Source: a virus
Direction: 5' to 3' (one strand)
Length of the DNA: 43,603 bases
IMG/VR virus record: IMGVR_UViG_3300025300_000024
Span: 1-43,603 of that record
In this document: in pieces, positions 3,130 to 41,906 of the stretch
How the letters are laid out: every line of letters starts with the position of its first letter
Position numbering within the stretch: position 1 is the stretch's first letter
Translations under genes and position numbers: made by a program
The notes under the pieces: generated by a model
The model's input: only the letters and a program-made list of their open reading frames with translations
Told to the model about the DNA's origin: nothing
The model's database searches: none

Positions 3130-3504
3130 ATGGAACAATATAAAGAACTCTTAGACCAAGCGGAACAATTTGTTCAAGATATCCGCAACAAGTTAAAGAA
3201 GATTCTGCCTAAAGCGGAGAAACATCCTGATGGTTGGGAACGTCACAACTCCTCTTATAGAGCCTGCGCATCATTACGTCTAGCCCTTACAGAAGCCAAG
3301 ACAGCTCTGCTATGGGTACAGTCAGCGGCTATGGAAGACGGTTCTCCAGAAGATATAGAACGGAGTAGGGCTTTACCTACTAATCATATAGAAGTAATTG
3401 CTCTTATAGACAAAAAGAAACACGAAATGAAAAAGCGTATAAGGGAAGAAGAACAATTGTCCAACTCTGTCTCAGGAGACACAGATGAAAGTTTTGTTAG
3501 ATGA
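3130..3504 (+). CDS. Hypothetical helical protein, 124 aa
   Basis: The product is almost entirely alpha-helical in pattern, with heptad-like Leu/Ile spacing in residues 1-30 and a Lys/Glu-rich C-terminal helix (about 85-115). I do not recognise the family. AGGAGG lies 5 bases before the ATG. The last 20 bases overlap the start of the ParB-like/methyltransferase gene, and the palindrome at 3468-3481 lies inside this gene's final codons. The overlap suggests co-translation with the methyltransferase, but a partnership is not shown. Confidence 0.72.
   Translation: MEQYKELLDQAEQFVQDIRNKLKKILPKAEKHPDGWERHNSSYRACASLRLALTEAKTALLWVQSAAMEDGSPEDIERSRALPTNHIEVIALIDKKKHEMKKRIREEEQLSNSVSGDTDESFVR
3468..3481. 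promoter_or_regulatory. 14-bp palindrome TGTCTC-AG-GAGACA over the methyltransferase RBS
   Basis: This is one of seven GTCTC-NN-GAGAC sites in the window. The centre and right arm include AGGAG, the ribosome binding site for the ATG at 3485. In RNA, CTGTCTC and GAGACACAG can pair and hide that site. As DNA it would be a symmetric protein-binding site directly over the translation start. Either reading suggests feedback control of the downstream ParB-like/methyltransferase gene. Confidence 0.6.
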
Positions 3505-5062
3505 TATAAAAGTCGGGGATCGTATGAGAGTAGACGAAGGAGATGTCAACTCTCTCATGGAAAGCCTAAAGCAGCTTGGCCAGATCGTACCTATATCTAT
3601 AGATAAAGATAAGAACCTTATCGCTGGTGGTAGGAGATATGCAGCTTTCACTCGCATTAGAGATGAATATCATTCTAAGATAGCTGAGCATAGAGATTGG
3701 GAGACAAGTCAAGACGGCTTAGAAGATCAAGGCCCCGAACCACCCGTCCTTAATCTTCCCTTCAATCCTGAAGAGATAGAAGCCTATTACATCGAAGATG
3801 AAGATGATATATCTAACAAAATAAGAGAGTACGAAGAAAATGCGGAGCGGAAAGATTTCTCTTGGCAGGAGGACGTAGTTTCTTGTTACAAACTACACAG
3901 TATGTACGTTGAGAAAGCAAAGCAGGATGGTCTAGCCCCTTGGGGAACTAATAAAACTGCAGCCAGGATGGGTCGTGCGCCATCCTGGCTACGTATAAAT
4001 CTTCAGATTGCTCGGTTGTGTGTTGCAGGTGACCCAGATATCCTTGACAAGTCTACTCGATTCGCAGCTATTCAACATCTAAAAGATAAAAAGGAAACAG
4101 AAGCGCAGAAGGAGTTGATGAAACGTATACAGAAAAGACGCGGAGAGGATATCGATAGGGCCTTCGATGCTGAACATGAAGCTCAGCACGCCGAAGGAGA
4201 ACTCGACTTCGATATGGATGAACTCGCGAGCGAAATAGAAAGAGAAGAAGGCCGTCAAGCTGATATGGAAGACATCGGAGGCGACTCATTATACTCAATG
4301 ACCGAAGAGACATCTATAAAACCTAGCTTAACATTTCCTAGGTTACGCCTCTATCATGATGATGCTATTTCTGTTATGCGTAAATTGCCTGACGGAATCC
4401 TCGATGCGATAGTAACCGACCCTCCCTTTGGTATAGATCTAGAAAAGGTCAAGACATCCGATCTCCATGCTGGTAAGATATACGAAGACCCTGATACCAA
4501 AGATAGTTACGAAGATCTCATGTTCAAATTCATACCTCAATCTTATCGCCTCCTTCGCGATGGGGGACATATGTATGTCTTCTTCGCTCCTCAGTTCTAT
4601 GAACTACTATATACAGCCGCAAGACAGGCTGGATTCAAGACTTATCAGATACCTTTAATATGGCATCGCCTCGGTGGTGGGCAAACAATGAACCCAGATC
4701 AATATCCAGCCTCGTGTTATGAGATGTGTATGTACTGCTTTAAAAATAACGTAAAGATGTATAAGAAAGGTCAGTCAAACGTACTACCCTACGAGCCGAT
4801 AAATGCAAGAGACAAGATACATCCAGCCGAGAAGCCCGCTGGTCTCTGGGAAGATCTAGTTTCAAGAACCTTACCCAAGGATGGTGATCCTCTTGTAGCT
4901 GACTTCTTTGCCGGTGTTGGTAGTTTCGCTAACAGTATTGTTAATACTGGAGAGTATCCATATTGGAGGATAATCTCTGTTGAGAAGGATGAACAATATT
5001 TCCTTCGCCAAGTCGCCCGTTTTGAATTCGTAGAGGGGATGGAGATAATGAAGAATGGCTAA
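3485..5062 (+). CDS. ParB-like N-domain fused to beta-class DNA methyltransferase
   Basis: This 525-aa protein has two parts. Residues 1-55 match the ParB/Sulfiredoxin-type domain, with Gly-Gln-Ile-Val-Pro-Ile near 33 and Ala-Gly-Gly-Arg-Arg-Tyr near 50. A helical, KorB-like HTH segment follows at about 125-175. Residues 285-525 are an amino-methyltransferase. The catalytic motif is Asp312-Pro-Pro-Phe315 and the SAM-binding motif Phe-Ala-Gly-Val-Gly lies near residues 475-479. Catalytic-before-SAM order is the beta class, covering N6-adenine and N4-cytosine enzymes. It probably methylates phage DNA, for protection or regulation. A highly acidic linker (about 220-275) joins the domains. No partner restriction enzyme is present. 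The ATG is at 3485; the 3' end overlaps the polymerase gene by 8 bases. Confidence 0.85.
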   Translation: MKVLLDDIKVGDRMRVDEGDVNSLMESLKQLGQIVPISIDKDKNLIAGGRRYAAFTRIRDEYHSKIAEHRDWETSQDGLEDQGPEPPVLNLPFNPEEIEAYYIEDEDDISNKIREYEENAERKDFSWQEDVVSCYKLHSMYVEKAKQDGLAPWGTNKTAARMGRAPSWLRINLQIARLCVAGDPDILDKSTRFAAIQHLKDKKETEAQKELMKRIQKRRGEDIDRAFDAEHEAQHAEGELDFDMDELASEIEREEGRQADMEDIGGDSLYSMTEETSIKPSLTFPRLRLYHDDAISVMRKLPDGILDAIVTDPPFGIDLEKVKTSDLHAGKIYEDPDTKDSYEDLMFKFIPQSYRLLRDGGHMYVFFAPQFYELLYTAARQAGFKTYQIPLIWHRLGGGQTMNPDQYPASCYEMCMYCFKNNVKMYKKGQSNVLPYEPINARDKIHPAEKPAGLWEDLVSRTLPKDGDPLVADFFAGVGSFANSIVNTGEYPYWRIISVEKDEQYFLRQVARFEFVEGMEIMKNG

Positions 5063-41885: not shown

Positions 41886-41892
41886 TCTACTG

Positions 41893-41906
41893 TGTCTCAA
41901 GAGACC
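41893..41906. promoter_or_regulatory. GTCTC-AA-GAGAC site in an intergenic region
   Basis: The arms are perfect at 41894-41905, 8 bases after the stop of the 133-aa gene. The remaining 115 bases of the gap contain CTAAGGTTTA twice and a weak AGGG/CCCT hairpin with a T-run near 41983-42006. No gene is seen in the gap. The site belongs to the dispersed palindrome family. Confidence 0.5.

Follow-up and report, generated by a model that had tools for sequence, protein, structure and literature searches.

Dispersed palindromes in lytic phage genomes as candidate parS-like sites for a ParB-methyltransferase fusion

The stretch of DNA analysed here (the window) is a complete-looking phage genome record of 43,603 bases, bounded by a terminal direct repeat (1-149 and 43455-43603) that is identical at 148 of 149 bases, with a G/A mismatch at position 23. 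It encodes a DNA polymerase I, a primase, a Sak4-like annealing protein, an exonuclease and a podovirus-type capsid and portal. The capsid has distant kin in PaP2 (Fredfastierviridae), Microcystis phage Mel-JY34 and a Desulfofustis phage, and the first 25 kb of the window had no DNA-level match to any recorded phage. The large terminase lies in two ORFs (35688-36350 and 34748-35695) that overlap by 8 bases and both match phrog_2; the split (34748-36350) reflects a frameshift, a split gene or a sequencing error. A 476-aa protein (10899-12329) matches phosphoribosylglycinamide synthetase (GARS_A, E 3e-13; GARS_C more weakly), which makes it a purine-synthesis-like gene, unusual for a phage. The 1559-aa protein encoded at 12326-17005 is probably virion-associated, judged by its place among the late genes, and has a weak DNA methyltransferase match at residues 362-475; the large gene at the corresponding position in VS-ABTNL3 carries the annotation DNA methylase, and the 1559-aa protein is possibly a DarB-like injected enzyme. 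Finally, the gene-poor region 37720-39490, which holds 27-nt tandem TTAGCCAATCTAGCC repeats, repeated TATCTATACTAAGGAA and a 64-nt inverted repeat, is a candidate replication origin.

A sequence-only reading of this genome had reported seven exact GTCTCNNGAGAC palindromes, and we found all seven at the positions it gave (Table 1), with the flanks it described (5' T at six of seven sites, 3' A or C). Their excess over chance also held, as 100 dinucleotide shuffles of the window averaged 0.06 such sites and none had more than 1. When all half-site and gap combinations were compared, this palindrome was by far the most over-represented (7 versus 0.03). Only one site differed from it by a single mismatch, and the total within two mismatches was 15 versus a shuffled mean of 20; the site set is therefore sharply bounded. 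Gaps between the sites range from 0.9 to 12.6 kb, and the window alone is not strikingly regular. The reading's account of site surroundings stood for 31438, 38803 and 41894 (intergenic), 39706 (between likely genes), 3469 (over a ribosome-binding site) and 16023 (in a gene); its in-gene placement of 27324 is uncertain, the only ORF there being a doubtful one.

Table 1. Positions in the window of the fusion gene, its predicted domains, the adjoining polymerase gene and the seven palindromes.
Feature	Position	Strand	Sequence	Remarks
ParB_N - HTH - N6/N4 DNA methyltransferase fusion, 525 aa	3485-5062	+		Proposed reader of the palindromes
ParB-type NTPase (CTPase-fold) domain	3485-3874	+		From alignment; profile match to Noc, ParB and KorB
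Helix-turn-helix	3926-4039	+		Recognition helix starts GRAPSWLRIN; pLDDT about 94
N6_N4 methyltransferase domain	4382-5002	+		PF01555, E 9.7e-16; motifs DPPF, FAGVGS
DNA polymerase I-like gene	5055-7502	+		Adjoins the fusion gene in 74/77 relatives
Palindrome site 1	3469-3480		GTCTCAGGAGAC	Overlaps the preceding ORF's end and the fusion gene's ribosome-binding site
Palindrome site 2	16023-16034		GTCTCTCGAGAC	Within the 1559-aa gene (12326-17005, -)
Palindrome site 3	27324-27335		GTCTCTTGAGAC	Between larger genes 26749-27225 and 27404-29110; in a doubtful 58-aa ORF; may be intergenic
Palindrome site 4	31438-31449		GTCTCAAGAGAC	Intergenic, immediately upstream of the major capsid gene (30249-31424, -)
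Palindrome site 5	38803-38814		GTCTCTAGAGAC	Intergenic, in the gene-poor stretch separating divergent late and early genes
Palindrome site 6	39706-39717		GTCTCTAGAGAC	Between likely genes 39496-39678 and 39739-39924; within hairpin 39687-39725
Palindrome site 7	41894-41905		GTCTCAAGAGAC	Intergenic, downstream of 41484-41885

Palindromes of this kind could act as RNA hairpins or processing signals in phage transcripts, a role the sequence-only reading had listed, and site 39706 indeed lies in a 16-bp near-perfect hairpin (39687-39725; -27.8 kcal/mol, z -6). The other six sites, however, folded no better than shuffles (z -1.2 to +0.5), and the palindromes of the wider family described below are very short at the centre, their letters covarying with a DNA-binding helix. 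An RNA role is thus largely refuted as a general explanation and carries next to no probability, with one window site alone folding unusually. Rfam and tRNA searches returned no match. Hairpin 39687-39725 stops just short of a ribosome-binding site, and the downstream GAGAC half of its palindrome can pair either inside the palindrome or with an upstream arm. In the capsid mRNA (31425-31456, - strand), CTCTTG-AGAC-CAAGAG overlaps site 31438 and could hide the ribosome-binding site AAGAGG of the major capsid gene.

The first palindrome precedes the gene for the ParB_N-HTH-methyltransferase fusion. Pfam ParB_N scored 14.2 bits in the window protein, under the cut-off of 26.3, and 51.9 bits in the relative OP947158, well over it; the Pfam HTH_ParB match was only weak (E 0.04). 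A profile of 26 fusion sequences matched solved Noc structures over the N-terminal domain and HTH (positions 4-197, E about 2e-19) and also matched ParB, KorB and N6/N4 methyltransferases. Box I (SLKQLGQIVPI), Box II (LIAGGRRYAA) and Box III (REYEENAERKD) of the window fusion are conserved in the alignment. An AF2 model (mean pLDDT 74.8) gave confident predictions for the N-terminal and helical parts and for much of the catalytic part, with high-confidence helices at residues 127-187. Foldseek matched the catalytic part to the CcrM and M1.HpyAVI folds, and the best 50 matches of the structure search were exclusively methyltransferases; the relation to ParB and Noc therefore rests on the sequence profile. 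As judged from sequence, the window fusion has a ParB_N (CTPase-fold) domain and a ParB-like HTH, and its C-terminal half is an N6_N4 methyltransferase where ParB has its dimerisation domain. The predicted methyltransferase carries the catalytic DPPY/F and SAM motifs. A second protein that had been proposed for binding assays, encoded at 43142-43333, has no recognisable DNA-binding domain.

The window motif itself occurs in 0 or 1 copies in the capsid relatives and was absent from 46 further records, most of them fusion-carrying, which rules out shared descent of its letters. A de novo search for gapped palindromes revealed that several relatives instead hold an over-represented palindrome of their own, far above shuffles, such as TGTCAATN3ATTGACA (G007), GTCCCAANTTGGGAC (the Desulfofustis phage) and ACTCTCTTN9AAGAGAGT (G011), among others; counting near-matches lifts the copies to about 9-18 in several of them. 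A dispersed palindrome was present in most fusion-encoding relatives, in 5-24 copies and with one common layout. Conservation in relatives, which the sequence-only reading had made a test of its proposal, thus fails for the letters and holds for the class of element. Refined motifs are typically palindromes of 23-25 bp with a variable core, most of which carry CT or AG as an outer pair some 11 bp away from the centre; the window motif is a shorter form of this layout, CTNTGTCTCNNGAGACANAG.

Fusion homologues were present in every relative with clear palindromes and in a few without. We scored palindromes against a null equal to the product of the observed frequencies of both arms, which replaced that of an earlier scan prone to false positives in GC-rich or low-complexity fusion-less genomes. 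Scores above the threshold of 10 were found in 34 of 46 genomes with a full fusion and in 0 of 16 others (maximum 8.7; Fisher 1e-7), one contig with a truncated fusion being set aside. Because half of the genome set had been fetched using the fusion as query, the fair comparison is the subset found through the capsid, where palindromes occurred in 6 of 9 genomes with an HTH-keeping fusion and in 0 of 15 others (p 6e-4). G016, whose fusion has no HTH, had no palindrome. Twelve of the 46 fusion carriers had no detectable palindrome, including L123 (Mel-JY34), L116-L118 (G037) and L126 (VS-ABTNL3); Mel-JY34 and G037 keep the HTH, and the fusions of such carriers could read degenerate sites or have lost their sites. 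Two candidates were set aside: CAATCGN6CGATTG in VS-ABTNL3 (4 copies) scored too low under the robust null, and at least one copy resembles a bidirectional terminator between convergent genes; WBK39793, a 'transcriptional regulator' beside a site in the Desulfofustis phage, matched no Pfam family and lacked a homologue in the other genomes.

Co-occurrence would also arise if the fusion merely marked the lineage and another phage protein, such as the small terminase or another replication protein, read the sites. Among gene families from three reference genomes (155 queries), none of the 30 palindrome-bearing genomes longer than 35 kb lacked the fusion, and the small terminase was equally associated, at 28 of 30, with several replication genes less so; two palindrome-bearing genomes thus had no detectable small terminase. 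Almost all members of the polymerase lineage carry the fusion, and a polymerase-based search for close fusion-less relatives yielded none besides truncated contigs.

Covariation between protein residues and motif bases was examined in 58 genomes having both a motif and the fusion (1583 residue tests). A GG core was predicted best by a His in the recognition helix (residue 147 of G008, p 3.4e-5), which comes after G-x-[ST] at the start of that helix. By our reading of the aligned G-K-S-R motif, this column probably corresponds to Caulobacter ParB R173, one of four published ParB/Noc residues that set parS/NBS specificity (PMC7383237); the window protein has Pro there (residue about 166). On the tree built from DNA polymerase, the combination of His and GG arises at about six separate points, and the nearest relatives have neither. 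When relatives were collapsed at 60% polymerase identity, GG occurred in 6 of 8 His lineages versus 2 of 34 others (p 1.4e-4; G078, whose motif is shifted by one position, was scored GG by eye), the exceptions being two His lineages without GG and two GG lineages without His. For the outer AG pair, the best predictor of all columns was Pro at loop residue 127 (p 9.4e-10). A second, independent case of this loop rule is L422 (SSPGPG loop, outer AG) versus L436 (STSP, outer CT). Furthermore, in G044, the sister of the AG clade, a CT-type loop is paired with an AG-clade helix, and the motif has outer CT and the core GTTTAAT. Within the His group, inspection by eye linked His-Lys to GGGGA and His-Ala/Pro to GGTWA. 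Mantel tests of motif distance over the whole set did not single out the HTH (r about 0.43, with small terminase and primase equal), and HTH columns as a class were not significantly enriched among the top-covarying columns (p 0.13); the case therefore rests on specific residues and contrasts.

These contrasts bear on which protein reads the sites. Motif distance follows the terminase and primase as well as it follows the HTH, but on the polymerase tree the links of His with GG and of PGP with AG turn up repeatedly in separate lineages, at positions with which ParB reads DNA, and absence of the HTH in G016 goes with absence of a palindrome. A reader other than the fusion is accordingly improbable. 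We consider it highly likely, from these sequence patterns, that the seven palindromes are parS-like sites read by the phage's own fusion (3485-5062), to which the family's sites are tied by co-occurrence, spacing and residue-base covariation. The suggestion that the sites are parS- or KorB-like has thus gained support. Another option that had been raised, that they are methylation targets, is unsupported, since the target of an enzyme would hardly be limited to seven sites per genome, differ in sequence from one genome to the next and covary with a separate HTH.

The placement of the sites speaks to what a bound fusion might do. For 373 sites from 33 genomes, 234 were partly outside ORFs versus 29 expected (63% versus 8%), and 263 fell within 60 bp of an ORF end versus 80 expected. 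Against a null of random sites placed at gene ends as often as the real ones, spacing was more even than random in every one of the 29 genomes longer than 35 kb (Stouffer z -8.9), with a median gap of 3.5 kb; with uniform placement as the null, this held for 28 of the 29. This even spacing fits coverage of the genome. The main rival to such coverage is that the fusion is chiefly a transcription regulator, comparable to KorB on RK2 or to the stoperators of cluster A, with bound or sliding clamps silencing or timing genes and methylation secondary or regulatory. We kept this option because a ParB-type protein can also repress, as does KorB, a CTPase clamp that acts at a distance (PMC11790492). 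The preference for intergenic positions near gene ends favors it, as do the window sites beside the starts of the fusion gene itself (3469) and of the capsid gene (31438), but coding constraint alone also predicts intergenic placement. Promoter operators would not be expected to spread evenly across late structural regions or to fall inside very long genes (1559 aa in the window, 2519 aa in G008 and 2573 aa in G019), and we found no KorA-like partner, repressor or integrase, and recognised no immunity repressor, in the window. A mainly regulatory role is thus unlikely, though it deserves serious weight.

For the favored reading, we propose that a dimer of the fusion would recognise the palindrome through its HTH and the preceding loop. 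If the fusion behaves like ParB, Noc and KorB, its N-terminal domains would then shut around DNA on binding a nucleotide, and the clamp would slide off the site. With sites every few kb, clamps could reach all of the phage DNA, carrying the methyltransferase along, and the architecture and spacing suggest that the phage genome would be methylated in cis. Nucleotide-dependent sliding and methylation in cis are possible rather than probable; many ParB-like fusions bind ATP or no NTP (PMC12704722). The simplest role of such methylation would be self-marking against host restriction or another DNA-targeting defence. Generalized, and just as tentatively, a large group of lytic phages may mark themselves by means of parS-like, genome-covering and phage-specific sites that load a sliding NTPase clamp of the ParB type, such that phage rather than host DNA is methylated. 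The same ParB_N, HTH and palindrome design, with sites over the whole genome, could instead represent parS proper, with the fusion condensing or anchoring replicating phage DNA for segregation or packaging. Nevertheless, no ParA family match was found among the window ORFs scanned, which did not take in every small ORF, the gene set is lytic, and a methyltransferase stands in for the ParB dimerisation domain; we regard a partition role as very improbable.

Candidate sites of defined sequence for dozens of fusions open their function to direct tests that need just a short duplex and the protein in purified form. Should the clamp model be right, loading sites and sliding, rather than enzyme specificity, would be a new means of confining an enzyme to one DNA molecule. 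Moreover, the many pairs of site and helix form a natural data set on the diversification of ParB-type DNA recognition.

The fusion architecture is known from a PNAS 2025 survey (PMC12704722), according to which it is common and enriched in phages and of unassigned role. Those phage ParB-CTPase/N6_N4 methyltransferase fusions and the Bce_0392 ParB-methylase (cited in PMC5512222) share the identical domain fusion, and the accessible parts of both papers report no dispersed palindromic sites for methyltransferase fusions. Nor did we find a report of dispersed sites for the fusion in the open-access literature. P1 DarB is likewise a phage-encoded methylase-type protein and protects phage DNA in cis (PMC5512222); it is, however, part of the virion and works with a SWI2/SNF2 motor to which it is coupled, rather than with a ParB clamp that has loading sites. 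Cluster A mycobacteriophage stoperators (PMC6550527) are also dispersed short sites whose sequence varies between phages along with the binding protein. In contrast to the exact palindromes of the window, which are linked to a ParB-methyltransferase in a genome where no immunity repressor was recognised, stoperators lack symmetry, are 13 bp long, mostly share one orientation and are bound by an immunity repressor (PMC6550527); the window system is not of that class. KorB and its OB operators on plasmid RK2 offer a ParB-type clamp that loads at operators and acts at a distance (PMC11790492), as the fusion may do by analogy, but the phage system has a fused methyltransferase, no KorA found in the window, different sites and a lytic phage genome. 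The chromosomal CTPase clamps of ParB-parS and Noc-NBS share with the fusion the ParB_N NTPase fold with Boxes I-III, the central HTH, palindromic sites and the R173-equivalent specificity column. They differ in that the fusion has an N6/N4 methyltransferase replacing the C-terminal dimerisation domain and that the phage sites are genome-wide, vary from phage to phage and typically span 23-25 bp in relatives, shorter in the window. With ParA not found among the scanned ORFs, the window system is not a ParABS member; its palindromes are linked to the fusion by co-occurrence and covariation, as putative binding sites. What is new is this set of candidate dispersed sites, a variant of the ParB-site principle outside ParABS.
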